From a virus: a DNA stretch of 49,387 bases. Shown here piece after piece: positions 2,294-10,170 of the stretch. Numbering within the stretch: the first letter of the stretch is position 1; each line of letters begins with the position of its first letter. The notes below the pieces were generated by a model. That model was not told where the DNA came from. It ran no database searches and saw nothing but the letters and a program-made list of their open reading frames with translations. The stretch lies in the IMG/VR virus record IMGVR_UViG_3300010885_019455, positions 1-49,387 of that record; one strand, written 5' to 3'. A program made the position numbers and the translations under genes.

Positions 2294-2443
2294 ATGAGTA
2301 ACAGAGATAAAGCAATGCTTGAGTGTGACAAATTCCACTTATGGCTACGAGATAAAGTACAAAATGTGCATTACGCTAACAACGAAAAAATGGCTGAAGC
2401 GTATGCTAGAGTTTATAAAAGTGCGATGACAAATACAGTCTAA
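2294..2443 (+). CDS. Small hypothetical protein (49 aa)
   Basis: A 49-residue, probably helical protein starting MSNRDKAMLECDKFHLWLRD, the last gene of the copy 3 run. Its stop codon overlaps the upstream part of promoter copy 4. No known family recognised. Confidence 0.5.
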   Translation: MSNRDKAMLECDKFHLWLRDKVQNVHYANNEKMAEAYARVYKSAMTNTV

Positions 2444-2472
2444 ACACGAATAACAATTGATAATAATAATAT
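2437..2472 (+). promoter_or_regulatory. Repeated phage promoter-like motif, copy 4
   Basis: CACGA at 2445-2449 and TGATAATAATAATATATG starting at 2458, with 13-nt spacing. The final ATG of that string, at 2473, is the start of the next gene. If the motif contains the -10 element, the transcript would have a very short leader or none. Confidence 0.65.
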
Positions 2473-2676
2473 ATGACAACGATACAAAGCAAACTAAGAG
2501 ACAAAGCATTCTCAAAAATGAGTAATCTTACAGTAGAAGTAAGAGATATAGAAAACGATATAAAATATGGTTTATCTATATTAGATGAAGATCAACTACA
2601 AAACATGGTAAGAAAAACAAAAGAAGATTTACAGTTATGGAGTTACATAGCTGAACTAGTAGAAAAAGATATTTAA
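2473..2676 (+). CDS. Small helical hypothetical protein (67 aa)
   Basis: A 67-residue protein of heptad-like helical composition (MTTIQSKLRDKAFSKMSN, then VRDIENDIKYGLSILDEDQL). It probably folds as a helical hairpin or coiled coil. The ATG lies only 15 nt after the start of TGATAA in promoter copy 4. Function unknown. Confidence 0.6.
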   Translation: MTTIQSKLRDKAFSKMSNLTVEVRDIENDIKYGLSILDEDQLQNMVRKTKEDLQLWSYIAELVEKDI

Positions 2677-2696
2677 TAACAAACTAAAAAAAAATT

Positions 2697-3059
2697 ATGG
2701 AATCAGTAAACAGAACATTCGAATTATGTAAAGAATCAATTAAGTTATCACCGTCAAGTATTTTCTCTAACGACGACGTAACAAGACTTATTGAGCAAGT
2801 TAAACAAGATGTATTAAAATTAATTGAAGAAGAAAAACCAGCAGAAGCACCAGAATTAACAGCATTCAAACTAGATGTATTACAAGCATTCAGACATGAA
2901 CTAGACGATACCCGCTATGGCGAATATGTTGATCAAGATTCAGCGGAGTTTAATATAAGCTATGACAATAGAATTGAACTATCAAACATTGATATAAATG
3001 TAGATGAATTAGAAAACGCTTTAGAGCGAGCATTTGAAAGAGCAGACGCAGGTAACTAA
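2697..3059 (+). CDS. Acidic hypothetical protein (120 aa)
   Basis: A 120-residue, strongly acidic protein. The N-terminal half is helical with an EEEKPAEAPE hinge; the C-terminal half holds DTRYGEYVDQDSAEFNISYD and a Glu-rich helix ending AFERADAGN. No family recognised. It lies between the 2473 and 3074 genes with 14-20 nt gaps, so is probably cotranscribed from promoter copy 4. Confidence 0.6.
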   Translation: MESVNRTFELCKESIKLSPSSIFSNDDVTRLIEQVKQDVLKLIEEEKPAEAPELTAFKLDVLQAFRHELDDTRYGEYVDQDSAEFNISYDNRIELSNIDINVDELENALERAFERADAGN

Positions 3060-3073
3060 TAAATATATATACT

Positions 3074-3507
3074 ATGAACTTAAGAAACTTATTAAAAGAA
3101 ATCAATGATAACGGTGGTGTATCATACAATATTACAACAGGCGATTATAATCCTACTAACGGTTACATGGTATCATTACCAGGTTATGAAATGACTTTTG
3201 ATAAAGTTAGCGAGCAAGATATAAAAGATTATATATCTAAAACTTAGAGGCTTTGCTGTTAGAATATGATAATGCTTACTTTGGAGCATGGGTTGATCGA
3301 GATCTAATATACTTCGATGTATCAGTAAAAATTGATAATTTATATGAAGCATGTCATGCAGGTATTGTTAATGAACAATTAGCAATCTACGACAATGCAA
3401 ATGCGGTTGCTATACACCTGCCGTCTCCTCAAAAGTCTGGCACATTTACGCAACAAGCAACATATAATAAACAAGCAGCAGATCGTGTTGTTGAGGCATA
3501 TACTTGA
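3074..3507 (+). pseudogene. Split gene: two halves of one phage protein family, broken by a frameshift
   Basis: Residues 1-57 are read from ATG 3074 and end at a stop at 3245-3247; they include GGVSYNITTG and the motif GYMVSLPGYE. The rest (about 85-88 codons) continues in the -1 frame from about 3244 to 3507 and includes AYFGAWVDRDLIYFDVSVKI and QLAIYDNANAVAIHL. In family members I remember from phages of Gram-positive bacteria, GYMVSLxGYE, a G-x-W-V-x-x-G/D-x-x-Y-x-D-x-S segment and an IAIYD segment lie in one continuous protein of about 140 residues. The joint sits at a run of four A's followed by CTTAG. It could be a real indel, a sequencing or assembly slip, or recoding. The second half alone could start at TTG 3253. 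Confidence 0.7.
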
Positions 3508-3534
3508 GCAAGAACTTATATTGATAATAATAAT
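3501..3534 (+). promoter_or_regulatory. Repeated phage promoter-like motif, copy 5, driving a noncoding stretch
   Basis: CAAGA at 3509-3513 (one mismatch to CACGA) and TGATAATAATAATGTT starting at 3522, with the standard 13-nt spacing. Unlike other copies, no gene follows for 350 nt; the first downstream element is a foldable RNA starting near 3535. This copy is the best argument that the motif is transcriptional rather than translational. Confidence 0.65.
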
Positions 3535-3623
3535 GTTGATCTCTGGGACTACGTAAATTCATTCCGCTAAGTTTGGTTGTAGTCGAATTGCAAATAAAGA
3601 ATTTAACCGGGTTGCAAATCAAC
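3535..3623 (+). ncRNA. Predicted structured RNA upstream of the tRNA-like gene
   Basis: An 89-nt segment closed by GTTGAT (3535-3540) pairing with ATCAAC (3618-3623), with an inner helix GACTAC (3547-3552) / GTAGTC (3579-3584). AATTC (3556-3560) in the loop of that helix can pair with GAATT (3585-3589), which would make a pseudoknot. The 5' end lies 13 nt after TGATAA of promoter copy 5. It lacks a T-arm, so it is not a tRNA. Expression and function are unproven; it may be a processed leader. Confidence 0.4.
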
Positions 3624-3626
3624 ATA

Positions 3627-3750
3627 AGTCAGGTGGCGGAATTGGTAGACGCTAAAAAACTGCACTGAGGTTAAGCGATCCTCACATTAAATAAAAAATT
3701 GATCAACGCAGGAGTGCGGGAGCTTACAGGTTCGAGTCCTGTCCTGACTA
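3627..3750 (+). tRNA. tRNA-Leu-like gene with an abnormal, enlarged middle region
   Basis: Both ends are canonical for tRNA-Leu. The acceptor stem is AGTCAGG (3627-3633) with CCTGACT (3743-3749) and discriminator A3750. A D-arm GCG...CGC around AATTGGTAGA follows, and the T-arm is ACAGG-TTCGAGT-CCTGT (3726-3742). The 73 nt between the D- and T-arms are about twice the expected length. One helix, CTGCA (3660-3664) with TGCGG (3715-3719), would place CTGAGG, with a GAG (Leu) anticodon, in the loop, followed by about 43 extra nt that contain a TGAGG/CCTCA hairpin (3666-3684). No CCA is encoded. It may be a degenerate tRNA, one with a small insertion or intron, or a tRNA-like decoy. Confidence 0.6.
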
Positions 3751-3755
3751 CAAAT

Positions 3756-3829
3756 TAAGGTGCTTATCGCTGCTGGGCATTTCTCGGTAGTATCTGGATA
3801 TAAGCTAAGTGTGAGATCGTCAAGCCTTA
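3756..3829 (+). ncRNA. Predicted structured RNA downstream of the tRNA-like gene
   Basis: A 74-nt segment closed by TAAGG (3756-3760) and CCTTA (3825-3829), with an inner perfect helix GCTTAT (3762-3767) / ATAAGC (3800-3805). It starts 5 nt after the tRNA-like gene and ends just before the A-rich part of promoter copy 6. It holds no open frame of note. It could be part of the same primary transcript as the tRNA-like RNA or act as a processing or terminator-like structure. Confidence 0.35.
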
Positions 3830-3869
3830 CAAAACAAACACGAATATTAATTGATAATAATAATGTAAC
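3828..3869 (+). promoter_or_regulatory. Repeated phage promoter-like motif, copy 6
   Basis: CACGA at 3839-3843 and TGATAATAATAATGTAAC starting at 3852: 13-nt spacing and a perfect match to the consensus. It precedes the 3885 gene by 15 nt and separates the RNA stretch from the next gene run. Confidence 0.75.
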
Positions 3870-3884
3870 TAAAACAAATTAACT

Positions 3885-4325
3885 ATGAATATATTTTATT
3901 TAGACAGAGATCCTGTTAAAGCGGCAGAACAACATTATAATAAGCATGTTGTCAAAATGGTATTAGAAGCAGCGCAATTACTTTGTACTGCCCATCATTT
4001 ATCCGGCAATCCAGATGATGTACCATATAAGAAAACACATATGAATCATCCATCAGCAGTATGGGTACGATCATCACGAGCTAATTACTTATGGTGTTAT
4101 GAATATATGTTAGCGTTAGGAGCAGAATATACACGTCGTTATAAAAAGCATCATTTAACTATTGCAAAGTGTCGCGGTGTATTATCTAAAGTACCTCATG
4201 CTATACATGCTGAAGATTTTTGCGACCCGCCCCAATGTATGCCAGCCGAATACAAAATGGCCGATGCAGTTGACGGTTATAAAAAATATTACGAAATTGG
4301 TAAAGCTCACTTAAAAGATAAATAA
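3885..4325 (+). CDS. Conserved phage DKHVVKM-type protein, distantly endonuclease V-like (146 aa)
   Basis: A 146-residue protein starting MNIFYLDRDPVKAAEQHYNK, followed by HVVKMVLEAAQLLCTAHH, KKTHMNHPSAVWVRSS, a helix ending EYTRRY, and a late MPAEYKMADAV...YKKYYEIGKAH. This pattern is common in cyanophages and other marine phages. The order of HP-x-x-x-W, EYxxR and MPxEY...YxxYY is reminiscent of T4 endonuclease V (pyrimidine-dimer glycosylase), but the catalytic Thr2 of that enzyme is absent (position 2 is Asn), so activity should not be assumed. First gene after promoter copy 6; the next starts 1 nt after its stop. Confidence 0.65.
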   Translation: MNIFYLDRDPVKAAEQHYNKHVVKMVLEAAQLLCTAHHLSGNPDDVPYKKTHMNHPSAVWVRSSRANYLWCYEYMLALGAEYTRRYKKHHLTIAKCRGVLSKVPHAIHAEDFCDPPQCMPAEYKMADAVDGYKKYYEIGKAHLKDK

Positions 4326-4817: not shown

Positions 4818-5021
4818 ATGAAAAGAACTAAAGATTTAATAGATCAGATGATGGAATACGAATCAGGATTGTTGAGTGATCCTGAAACATTGGAGATGTT
4901 TTCAACAATTGTAAAAGAAAAAATGCAATATAGTTTGCAAGGACATTATGGTAGGACTGTTACTAGTCTTATAATAGATGGTTGGTTAGATAGACACGGC
5001 CAAATTTTAAAAGAAATTTAA
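4818..5021 (+). CDS. Conserved small phage protein (67 aa)
   Basis: A 67-residue protein with IDQMMEYESGLLSDPETLEM and SLQGHYGRTVTSLIIDGWLD. The YESGxLS...ETLxxF and LQGHYGRTxxxLI segments match a well-spread phage protein family with no known function. It follows the 4576 gene by 2 nt. Confidence 0.65.
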   Translation: MKRTKDLIDQMMEYESGLLSDPETLEMFSTIVKEKMQYSLQGHYGRTVTSLIIDGWLDRHGQILKEI

Positions 5022-5034
5022 AAACAAATAAGAT

Positions 5035-5232
5035 ATGAAACAATTCCTAACATTCACAATAACATGGATAGCCAGTAATCTATCAATACCATTCTGGATG
5101 GTTGGTCACGTACATTTAACTGTTAATGTATATGAAGACATACACGAAATAATAGCTTCATTGGGAATGAATATAATTGTTGCTATAGGATTTATAATTG
5201 AATACAAAACAAACACGAACCAAAAACGATAA
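5035..5232 (+). CDS. Small membrane protein with two spans (65 aa)
   Basis: A 65-residue protein with hydrophobic segments at about residues 4-24 (FTITWIASNLSIPFWMVG) and 42-56 (LGMNIIVAIGFII), joined by a polar loop with HLTVNVYEDIHE, and a basic tail. Two transmembrane helices are likely. Its last codons overlap promoter copy 7. Function unknown; an envelope role is possible. Confidence 0.6.
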   Translation: MKQFLTFTITWIASNLSIPFWMVGHVHLTVNVYEDIHEIIASLGMNIIVAIGFIIEYKTNTNQKR

Positions 5233-5237
5233 TATAT
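5204..5237 (+). promoter_or_regulatory. Repeated phage promoter-like motif, copy 7
   Basis: CACGA at 5214-5218 and CGATAATATATATG starting at 5227, 13-nt spacing with one mismatch in TGATAA. It overlaps the end of the 5035 gene. The next gene's ATG (5238) sits exactly where the motif's own ATG lies in the other copies, which suggests a leaderless or near-leaderless message. Confidence 0.6.
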
Positions 5238-5504
5238 ATGAGATTAAACGTAAGACTATCACAAGAAGATATTAATAAAATAGCTGATACAGTTGTAGAA
5301 AAAATACTAAGGAAACAATTAGAATATGATTATGCTTATGATCAATCATATCAACAGAATTTAACTTATGATATGGTATTACAACAAATGGTTGGATTAC
5401 AATTATTATTATCAGAGTATGTAACAACTGAAGATTATGAGAAAGCAGAGCTTACTAAAATGAAAATAAAACAACTTAAAGTAATATTAGATAAATTAAA
5501 ATGA
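5238..5504 (+). CDS. Helical protein with a UVR-like motif (88 aa)
   Basis: An 88-residue helical protein. It starts MRLNVRLSQEDINKIADTVV and ends with TTEDYEKAELTKMKIKQLK. The latter resembles the UVR motif of UvrB/UvrC and Clp regulators (D-Y-E-K-A-x-x-x-x-x-x-I-x-x-L), which mediates helix-hairpin pairing. In small phage proteins this motif gives no firm function. First and only gene directly after promoter copy 7. Confidence 0.55.
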   Translation: MRLNVRLSQEDINKIADTVVEKILRKQLEYDYAYDQSYQQNLTYDMVLQQMVGLQLLLSEYVTTEDYEKAELTKMKIKQLKVILDKLK

Positions 5505-5577
5505 TAATTAAAATGCGACGATAGGTTGTTAATTAGTTATAGTAGCAGGCTAATGTCACACTTTTAAATTTAATATA

Positions 5578-6198: not shown

Positions 6199-6401
6199 AA
6201 TTAATACCAATACAAAAAGCAAAAGCATTGTATAATCATTATGATGATTTGTTAAATAAGGATTTTATGAATCCAATTATAAATCACAATCAATTAATAG
6301 AGTGCTCATTAATAGCAGTTAATTTAGTTTTAAACTCAAATGATATTGATGGTGAATATTCTTATTATTTAGAAATTAAAAAAGAAATTGAAAACCTATG
6401 A
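6195..6401 (+). CDS. Small conserved phage protein, paralog of the 14114 protein (68 aa)
   Basis: A 68-residue helical protein starting MKLIPIQKAKALYNHYDDLL and ending with ECSLIAVNLVLNSN...YYLEIKKEIENL. The ending aligns with the 14030 protein (RAVNLVINSVELE...YWQEVKNEIEKL), so these are paralogs of a family common in Bacteroidota phages. Its ATG overlaps the stop of the HTH gene and its stop overlaps the sigma-factor start by 4 nt, indicating translational coupling. Function unknown. Confidence 0.65.
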   Translation: MKLIPIQKAKALYNHYDDLLNKDFMNPIINHNQLIECSLIAVNLVLNSNDIDGEYSYYLEIKKEIENL

Positions 6402-9326: not shown

Positions 9327-9914
9327 TCCCGTAAATACAAAACTAAATGAAAATTAAGTGCATAGGCTGTAATGAAACATTACATATATCTGAATTCTAC
9401 AAACACAAAGCCGGCGTGCATGGAGTGCTTGCGAGATGTAAGAAATGTGTAAAGGTACAGCGAAGTAAAAATTACGAATATAGAATAGCAGACCCTAAGT
9501 TTGTGCAATCTGAACGTCAAAGAGGCAGAGAAAAATATGCTAGATTAAATTATAAAGAAATTAATAGAGAAAAAATGCAAGATCCAGCTAGAAAATTAAA
9601 ACATAGAATACGAACCGCCGCATATTCTTTATTAAACAAAAGAGTAAATTCTAGTACTTTATTAGGCTGTTCTCATGATGAATTTTTTAAACATATAGAA
9701 TCAAAATTCAAAAACGGAATGAGTTGGGATAATATAAATGAATGGCATTTAGATCATATAGTTCCTTTAAGTTGGTGTAGTACAAATGAAGAATTATTTA
9801 TATATTCGCATTATTCAAATATACAGCCTTTATTCGCAATAGACAATTTAAGAAAAAGCGATAACTATATAGGTTAATTTTAAATTATAAATGTACCTAT
9901 AGCGCTTCCCGTAA
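9327..9914. repeat. 8-bp direct repeats flanking the HNH gene
   Basis: TCCCGTAA occurs at 9327-9334, in the gap before the HNH gene, and at 9907-9914, just after it. They may be traces of insertion of the endonuclease gene. At 8 bp in AT-rich DNA chance is possible, but the motif is GC-rich for this genome. Confidence 0.3.
9347..9877 (+). CDS. HNH endonuclease, free-standing
   Basis: A 176-residue protein. The N-terminus is a zinc-ribbon (CIGCNETLHISEFYKH and ARCKKCVKVQ: CxxC...CxxC). The middle is basic and helical, and the C-terminus holds the HNH nuclease core: SWDNINEWHLDHIVPLSW followed by NIQPLFAIDNLRKSDNYIG. The W-H-L-D-H-I-x-P and N-x-x-P-L-x-x-x-x-N-x-x-K pattern is that of phage HNH enzymes, most of which are homing-type. 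It sits between the SSB-like gene and the primase-helicase. Confidence 0.85.
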   Translation: MKIKCIGCNETLHISEFYKHKAGVHGVLARCKKCVKVQRSKNYEYRIADPKFVQSERQRGREKYARLNYKEINREKMQDPARKLKHRIRTAAYSLLNKRVNSSTLLGCSHDEFFKHIESKFKNGMSWDNINEWHLDHIVPLSWCSTNEELFIYSHYSNIQPLFAIDNLRKSDNYIG

Positions 9915-9919
9915 GAATA

Positions 9920-9942
9920 GCCTTTAGGTCTTTTTTTAAGGC
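9920..9942 (+). promoter_or_regulatory. Hairpin after the HNH gene
   Basis: GCCTT (9920-9924) pairs with AAGGC (9938-9942) around a 13-nt loop containing seven T's. It lies in the 230-nt gap between the HNH gene and the truncated primase start. It may be a weak terminator or a leader structure; a second GCCTTTAG copy lies near 9987. Confidence 0.35.
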
Positions 9943-9998
9943 AGAACAAATGTTTGGAACAGCGAAAGCAGAACTTAGTTTAGACAGCCTTTAGTAGT

Positions 9999-10033
9999 TA
10001 GTTAGACCCCATTAATTGGGGTTTTTCTAACTA
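9999..10033 (+). terminator. Intrinsic terminator before promoter copy 8
   Basis: ACCCC (10006-10010) and GGGGT (10018-10022) form a stem with a 7-nt loop, followed by a T-run (10022-10026). An outer pairing TAGTTAGA (9999-10006) with TCTAACTA (10026-10033) is possible, so alternative folds exist. It would end transcription from the ERF-HNH run shortly before promoter copy 8. Confidence 0.75.
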
Positions 10034-10048
10034 TAATAAGTAGCGCTT

Positions 10049-10090
10049 ACAATCTGAACACGATTGTATTATGATAATATATATGTAACA
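10049..10090 (+). promoter_or_regulatory. Repeated phage promoter-like motif, copy 8
   Basis: CACGA at 10059-10063 and TGATAATATATATGTAAC starting at 10072, with 13-nt spacing. It follows the terminator at 9999-10033 directly, a terminator-promoter boundary. It would drive the small genes and the primase-helicase. Confidence 0.7.
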
Positions 10091-10105
10091 AATTAAATTT
10101 AATAA

Positions 10106-10147
10106 ATGCAAACAACAGAGATAAACGGTTTCTTGCTATACACATAA
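10106..10147 (+). pseudogene. Truncated duplicate of the primase-helicase start (13 codons)
   Basis: An ATG-to-stop frame encoding MQTTEINGFLLYT. The primase-helicase at 10910 begins MTIQTTEINGFLIDN, so nine residues (QTTEINGFL) are shared and then the copy stops. It lies 16 nt downstream of promoter copy 8, where the primase start would be expected. Between the copy and the intact gene are three small genes. I read it as a remnant or partial duplication from insertion of those genes. Confidence 0.7.
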
Positions 10148-10170
10148 ATAAACTAAAAACAAATAATATT

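Follow-up and report, generated by a model that had tools for sequence, protein, structure and literature searches.

The locus studied here raises the question of whether a stretch of about 300 nt without a gene, located in the early region of a phage genome, encodes RNAs of its own, and what such RNAs would be made for. The window, meaning the whole stretch of DNA analyzed, is a virus record of 49,387 bases. It contains genes for terminase, portal and head proteins, and its portal protein is 41–52% identical to those of the Flavobacterium phage elemo, the Maribacter phage Panino and the metagenomic phage MW202828. By these sequence comparisons, the window phage can be placed among the podovirus-like phages of Flavobacteriia. 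Here, the early genes are located on the plus strand (1–18.6 kb) and the structural genes on the minus strand.

The gene-free gap of the early region

Analysis of the open reading frames revealed no credible gene from the stop codon at 3507 to the ATG at 3885, which bears out the gene-free stretch noticed in an earlier, sequence-only reading of this DNA. The last ORF before the gap (3253–3507, plus strand; ORF list) resembles phrog_17808, a family of unknown function (PHROGs, E 3e-8). The gene following it (3885–4325, plus strand) is conserved, belongs to phrog_624 (PHROGs, E 3e-48; 31 viral relatives) and, in relatives, anchors the array by synteny. The same reading called the gap striking for this genome, and rightly so: it is the largest of the early region, and its GC content reaches 0.50 per 100 nt vs. 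0.30 for the early region. The second largest early gap (9878–10170) contains a terminator-like hairpin, a T run and an early promoter.

Within the gap, three consecutive foldable segments had been proposed, and their coordinates were right within about 2 nt. The thermodynamic z-scores of the three segments, termed RNAs A, B and C, are weak (−1.8, −1.2, and +0.15, respectively). Due to this, single-sequence folding was dropped as evidence and the proof of structure rests on comparison with relatives. Their loci were gathered by DNA patterns and by two genes, of which the downstream gene gave 31 loci and a sigma-like gene 14. Compensatory changes, the absence of which the first reading had named as refuting, were found in relatives for all three segments, which makes the case for a noncoding RNA array stronger than in the first reading. 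As far as sequence comparison can tell, 3535–3830 is noncoding and contains three independently conserved structured RNAs, which are almost certainly real.

RNA A, a three-way junction

RNA A (3535–3623, plus strand) was defined by alignment, folding, pair counts and a covariance model. Its stems are P1 (3535–3540/3618–3623), P2 (3547–3552/3579–3584) and P3 (3588–3593/3612–3617), the loop of the latter containing the conserved motif ATAAAGAAnnTAaCCGGkT. Nine sequences, the window and eight relatives, could be aligned, and RNAalifold finds the three-way junction unaided. Here, 95.6% of cells are paired and 11 of 20 pairs have changed on both sides, compared with at most 43.3% and at most two pairs in slid registers. 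The closing and inner stems predicted earlier for the two outer segments, A and C, are thereby supported by the pair counts of the relatives (for RNA C see below).

The covariance model of RNA A finds one copy in each of nine of 29 records, the window included. Furthermore, an independent tenth RNA A, outside the training set, was recovered in the contig L299 with 62.9 bits (E 2e-13). A search of all viral contigs with the conserved-loop pattern gave 80 matches, most of them chance-like, and none beyond this group of phages could be clearly assigned to the family. For both RNA A and RNA C, nothing in Rfam 15 matched significantly with E values up to 5; the sole signal was a chance match to snoR60 of 15 bits (cut-off 40). 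A tRNA-like RNA lies directly 3′ of RNA A in the window, G001, G002, G004, G008, G014, G016 and L299.

RNA C, a second family present in cultured phages

RNA C (3754–3832, plus strand) was delimited by alignment, pair counts and a covariance model, together with its presence in 64 elemo phages. It consists of P1 (3756–3760/3825–3829), P2 (3762–3767/3800–3805) and an inner hairpin (around 3769–3790), and contains the conserved sequence AGTATCnGGA. Among eight distinct sequences, 92.9% of cells are paired and eight of 21 pairs are compensated (slid registers at most 44% and at most four pairs). The closing stem is supported best, occurring as AAGG/CCTT, TAGG/CCTA, TAAG/CTTA and ATAG/CTAT. Judged by these comparisons, RNA C is a second new RNA family.

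RNA C occurs in 64 cultured elemo phage records of Flavobacterium sp. BAL314 at 99% identity or more; the elemo match is 100% identical to the query, which itself came from the elemo group. The model also matches the relatives G009 and G010. In elemoE, the only one of these phages inspected, RNA C ends about 3 nt 5′ of a tRNA-Met gene and overlaps a doubtful ORF of 38 amino acids. Directly 3′ of that tRNA-Met, about 315 nt are unannotated (L290:1348–1665) and may hold further RNAs. The presence of RNA C in dozens of cultured Flavobacterium phages means that at least one member of the array is open to immediate study.

RNA B, a tRNA shell with a replaced anticodon arm

The middle segment, RNA B (3627–3750, plus strand), had been described as carrying the ends of a tRNA-Leu. 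This is supported by the Rfam tRNA model, a scan for acceptor and T arms, and the pair counts of an alignment; the missing anticodon arm and the large family described below were absent from that description. RNA B has an acceptor stem (3627–3633/3743–3749), a D stem (3636–3638/3650–3652), a T stem (3726–3730/3738–3742) with the loop TTCGAGT, and A73 at 3750. The acceptor stem of 7 bp and the T stem of 5 bp are perfect and are compensated across relatives. In short-stretch and single-record searches, RNA B scores 34 bits against the Rfam tRNA model (RF00005; cut-off 29), with an insert of 68 nt where the anticodon arm belongs; a whole-window Rfam scan with fast filters did not report it as a tRNA. 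No 5-bp anticodon stem with a 7-nt loop and U33 is present. ARAGORN finds no tRNA at this position in normal mode, and in intron mode reads it as a tRNA-Cys with a 32-nt intron.

The anticodon arm of RNA B is replaced by a conserved central domain (3653–3725, plus strand) with hairpins at 3666–3670/3680–3684 and 3707–3710/3715–3718 and an AU hairpin at about 3686–3703. A long stem CTGCACT/AGTGCGG, suggested by single-sequence folding, was superseded by the CGCA/TGCG hairpin, which shows compensation in L292. A probe of 17 nt taken from the center matched ten other viral contigs, and all ten matches are tRNA-like RNAs with the same center. This center sits on the acceptor stems AGTCAGG/CCTGACT, AGTTAGG/CCTAACT, AGCAAGG/CCTTGCT and GGTCAAG/CTTGACC, compensated throughout except for one mismatch in L293. 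Compensation is also seen in the D stems (GCG/CGC, GTG/CAC), in several kinds of T stem and in the central hairpin (CGCA/TGCG or CGCT/AGCG), and three members have extra inserts in the D loop. Over 24 pairs, counted in ten of the 11 sequences with a near-duplicate omitted, 99.6% of cells are paired and eight pairs are compensated (slid registers at most 45% and one pair); the helix within the probe is invariant by construction of the search. Across the 11 viruses the center hardly varies, while coordinated changes affect four of the seven acceptor pairs, one pair of the D stem and two of the T stem. Since a nearly invariant center is carried by different acceptor stems, the center would be the functional payload. 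RNA B very probably does not decode.

A wider viral family of tRNA-like RNAs

The pattern of the constant ends was found in at least 120 viral stretches. All loci taken together contain at least 175 distinct elements in at least 103 loci, 63–183 nt long and up to seven per locus. At least 41 loci contain two or more elements, and in all 72 neighboring pairs both elements share a strand, with a median gap of 231 nt. The search itself dictated constant ends, but not diverse centers. By a crude k-mer threshold, the centers form about 129 clusters, 105 of them singletons. A canonical anticodon arm is present in five of 164 elements (one on average in shuffled centers), vs. 300 of 382 (79%) ordinary tRNAs from the same loci, for which the placement test was similar though a little more lenient. 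ARAGORN in normal mode assigns 70 of the 175 elements to 38 different anticodons, hardly above the 56–65 calls obtained with shuffled centers. The centers fold better than shuffled sequences (mean z −0.85, s.e. 0.09, n = 159). One subfamily displays a compensated 4-bp hairpin with a loop of 3–4 nt; by eye, other centers contain a tetraloop or a likely pseudoknot.

Among 84,980 cellular species genomes the full pattern was not found. The 3′ end was present in six contigs of metagenome-assembled genomes (MAGs; L284–L289, GTDB), where the elements belong to the same family; the bins are assigned to Bacteroidota, Neisseriaceae and Helicobacteraceae. The simplest reading is that these are probably phage contigs binned into MAGs. 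A blastn search of 50,697 phage records gave no exact AGTCAGG element. Related tRNA-like RNAs that lack a proper anticodon arm and differ in their acceptor stems are present in Panino (4941–5032, in an unannotated gap), MW202828 (523–630) and elemo, where the RNA is annotated as tRNA-Ala and its anticodon loop is irregular. The acceptor and T arm scan gave 31 hits, ordinary tRNAs included, vs. 0.7 in shuffled sequence.

Taken from these sequences, the chassis of RNA B defines a large and apparently undescribed viral family, in which the center has been swapped for many RNA domains. No account of an anticodon-less family was found in the literature searched, which covered a minority of bioRxiv preprints and subscription papers. 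Because the codon-reading arm is replaced by other domains, members probably cannot take part in translation. Programs for tRNA detection miss such elements or assign arbitrary anticodons, and therefore some tRNA counts and anticodon lists of phages are probably wrong.

Comparison with known systems

tRNA-like RNAs and structured phage RNAs near tRNAs are kinds of RNA already known. RNA B resembles a class II tRNA of the Leu type (RF00005) in its 7-bp acceptor stem, Leu-like D arm GGCGGAATTGGTAGACGC, T arm with TTCGANT, and A73. In contrast to a tRNA, it contains about 70 nt of another conserved structure instead of the anticodon arm, and within the family anticodons are assorted or missing. 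With tmRNA (SsrA) it shares the principle that tRNA-like ends close a different RNA domain in place of the anticodon arm. However, RNA B keeps a D stem and is far shorter, and the family has many unrelated centers. Neither a tmRNA call by ARAGORN nor an Rfam tmRNA match was obtained for RNA B, and this identity was rejected.

GOLLD and ROOL are structured phage RNAs of unknown function which lie near tRNAs or contain them (PMC12286853). These are hundreds of nucleotides long, have conserved cores of their own and form cages, unlike the RNAs described here; no Rfam covariance match to them exists in the window or in nine relatives. Theta ribozymes are small structured RNAs lying flush with the ends of phage tRNAs (PMC10879173). 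There, an HDV-like fold is located at tRNA 3′ ends, whereas a tRNA-like RNA or tRNA gene follows 3′ of RNA A and, in elemoE, of RNA C. With the HDV-like Rfam models nothing was matched, RNAs A and C included, either at the gathering score or with E values up to 5. Phage tRNAs that defeat tRNA-attacking defenses are likewise small phage RNAs with tRNA ends, but they decode and replace a lost tRNA (PMC11555353). RNA anti-CRISPRs (Racr) are small noncoding phage RNAs acting on a host defense (PMC10651486). An anti-defense role would be common to both, although it is only proposed for the array RNAs, and Racr mimic CRISPR repeats and have no tRNA-like chassis.

Transcription of the array

The array had been called promoter-bounded, which holds on its 3′ side and fails on its 5′ side. 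A position-weight matrix trained on 68 sites of relatives, with the window excluded, found seven strong promoter sites of 30–40 bits in the window, all else scoring at most 3.2 bits. These early promoters (94, 459, 1643, 2457, 3851, 5226, and 10071) all lie on the plus strand and have the consensus TTACAAactaAAcACGA-N7-TTGATAATA; a sigma-like factor is encoded by the phage at 6398–7156. The proposed 3′ motif turned out to be the strongest of the seven: an early promoter of 40.1 bits (3827–3866, plus strand, TTGATAATA at 3851) belonging to the next operon, with an upstream element overlapping the 3′ strand of the RNA C stem P1.

The motif proposed at 3501–3534 (plus strand) did not stand up to the same scan and was rejected. 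Only a −10 half-site is present (ATTGATAATAATAATG at 3520), the conserved TTACAA..AAcACGA element being absent. The −10 part of this site (3521) is intact with 14.3 bits and the upstream part gives −24.2 bits, so that the total of −9.9 bits ranks 54th, within the noise. In relatives, too, there is usually no such site before the start of RNA A. Because the 5′ site lacks its upstream element, the array is most likely transcribed by read-through, as the 3′ tail of the operon starting at the 2433–2466 promoter. In the matrix scan, this early promoter (2433–2472, plus strand) has 37.3 bits and precedes the operon 2473–3507.

Turnover of array content

The content of the array varies between near relatives around a fixed neighbor gene. 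In G001, the adjoining protein is 98% identical to that of the window and the RNA content is different. The order A-B-C of the window is replaced by A and a tRNA-like RNA in G005, by A and a mini tRNA-like RNA in G014, by a pseudoknot-like RNA, A and a mini in G001 and G002, and by A and two tRNA-like RNAs in G011. The island of G007 consists of a tRNA-Met and a tRNA-like RNA of 160 nt. In L299, one island runs from a pseudoknot-like RNA through RNA A and a mini tRNA-like RNA to RNA B of the window.

Proposed function and alternative explanations

It is established that features of the acceptor stem and T arm guide RNase P and the 3′ processing of tRNAs, and that an A73 end can receive CCA. 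RNA B keeps the acceptor stem, D stem, T arm and A73, which are the features recognized by tRNA-processing enzymes. From this biology we infer that host RNase P and 3′ processing would cut both ends of RNA B and, since RNAs A and C are 3 and about 5 nt away, release these as well, and that RNA B would be trimmed and stable. The noncoding tail of the early operon would thus give rise to three separate stable RNAs. In this model, to which we assign a probability of about one half, an early operon ends in the array, which is processed and supplies effector RNAs. The tRNA-like part would serve as a chassis for processing and stability, and the function proper would lie in the interchangeable center, which would be aimed at an RNA-binding or RNA-cutting target of the host during take-over or counter-defense. 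Such a role appears to be the most economical reading of arrays whose content turns over quickly. No protein partner was found for the array RNAs. An antisense action on the phage's own genome was rejected, since the longest matches of the window RNAs lie within the shuffled range.

More tentatively, and with the odds somewhat against it, bacterial viruses may share one tRNA-like chassis without an anticodon and load it, in the manner of cassettes, with many unrelated RNA effector domains, which would make up a modular system of take-over or counter-defense with no known counterpart. If true, phages would have in this tRNA shell, with its conserved and interchangeable domains that do not decode, a general route to stable effector RNAs, and the shell would also offer access to new host targets. 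Recombination between the repeated ends could make part of the diversity without any function.

The retention of acceptor stem, T arm and A73 while decoding is lost would also fit to decoys or sponges, which occupy host enzymes attacking or modifying tRNAs (CCA-end toxins, tRNA nucleases, and modification enzymes), the center tuning which of them is bound. Phage tRNAs are known to counter tRNA-attacking defenses, namely PtuAB of retron-Eco7 and PrrC (PMC11555353). Nevertheless, these cases supply functional decoding tRNAs, and one center almost unchanged on several acceptors points to the center and not the acceptor as the working part; decoys are therefore possible but rather unlikely. The close spacing of B to A (3 nt) and C (about 5 nt), the tRNA-Met gene about 3 nt after RNA C in elemoE, and the tRNA-like RNA directly following RNA A in the window and the relatives named above are all in line with processing punctuation, by which RNase P would cut the operon transcript and free A, C or the upstream mRNA. 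Punctuation alone, however, needs neither a conserved center of 70 nt nor more than 100 different centers, which makes it improbable as the whole explanation.

A 5′ leader or riboswitch-like control of the phrog_624 gene, which the island adjoins in many relatives, is less probable still. The best promoter of the window sits between the array and this gene, which thus has its own start, and RNA C has other neighbors in elemo and G009. The 34 bits in Rfam and the tRNA-Cys call in intron mode would agree with chance folds beside an ordinary tRNA that has a short intron or beside a tRNA pseudogene in decay, but this reading is largely refuted and hardly credible. Intron calls are about as frequent after shuffling of the centers (130–136 vs. 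141 of 175), by which the intron was rejected. The pseudogene was rejected by the conserved center and the compensated stems, and decay would have cost the acceptor and T stems.

Additional RNAs at related loci

Several further elements were observed beside those described. A likely H-type pseudoknot RNA, CGTGGGAAACAGCACGTAATGCTG, is located 5′ of RNA A in L132 (G001), L134 (G002), L135 (G004) and L299:4700–4790(−). The mini tRNA-like RNA directly 3′ of RNA A, AACTAAG...TGGGGTTCGATTCCCCTTTTAGTT, is as short as 69 nt, so that an ordinary anticodon arm would not fit (L132:4178–4271, L134:12079–12147(−), L135:12739–12807, L145:12253–12321, L146, and L299). Noncoding islands of about 400–470 nt in G023 (L149:1957–2349 and 5079–5548), each with a terminal tRNA-like acceptor and T arm, are possibly larger members of the same architecture. 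In Panino (PP540027, 27513–27899), a tRNA-Asp, a tmRNA and a tRNA-Thr are annotated in mutual overlap; the tmRNA call is probably false, and tRNA-like RNAs may lie there. Another conserved noncoding RNA, GGYCTGGCTYTGAAATANRGTCGRAAGAGTRGACTCCG, is found just after an early promoter in relatives (L134:9214–9251(−), L135:8305–8342, L136:12156–12193(−), L145:6990–7027, L146:8950–8987, and others), and the window seems to start just 3′ of the position of this RNA.
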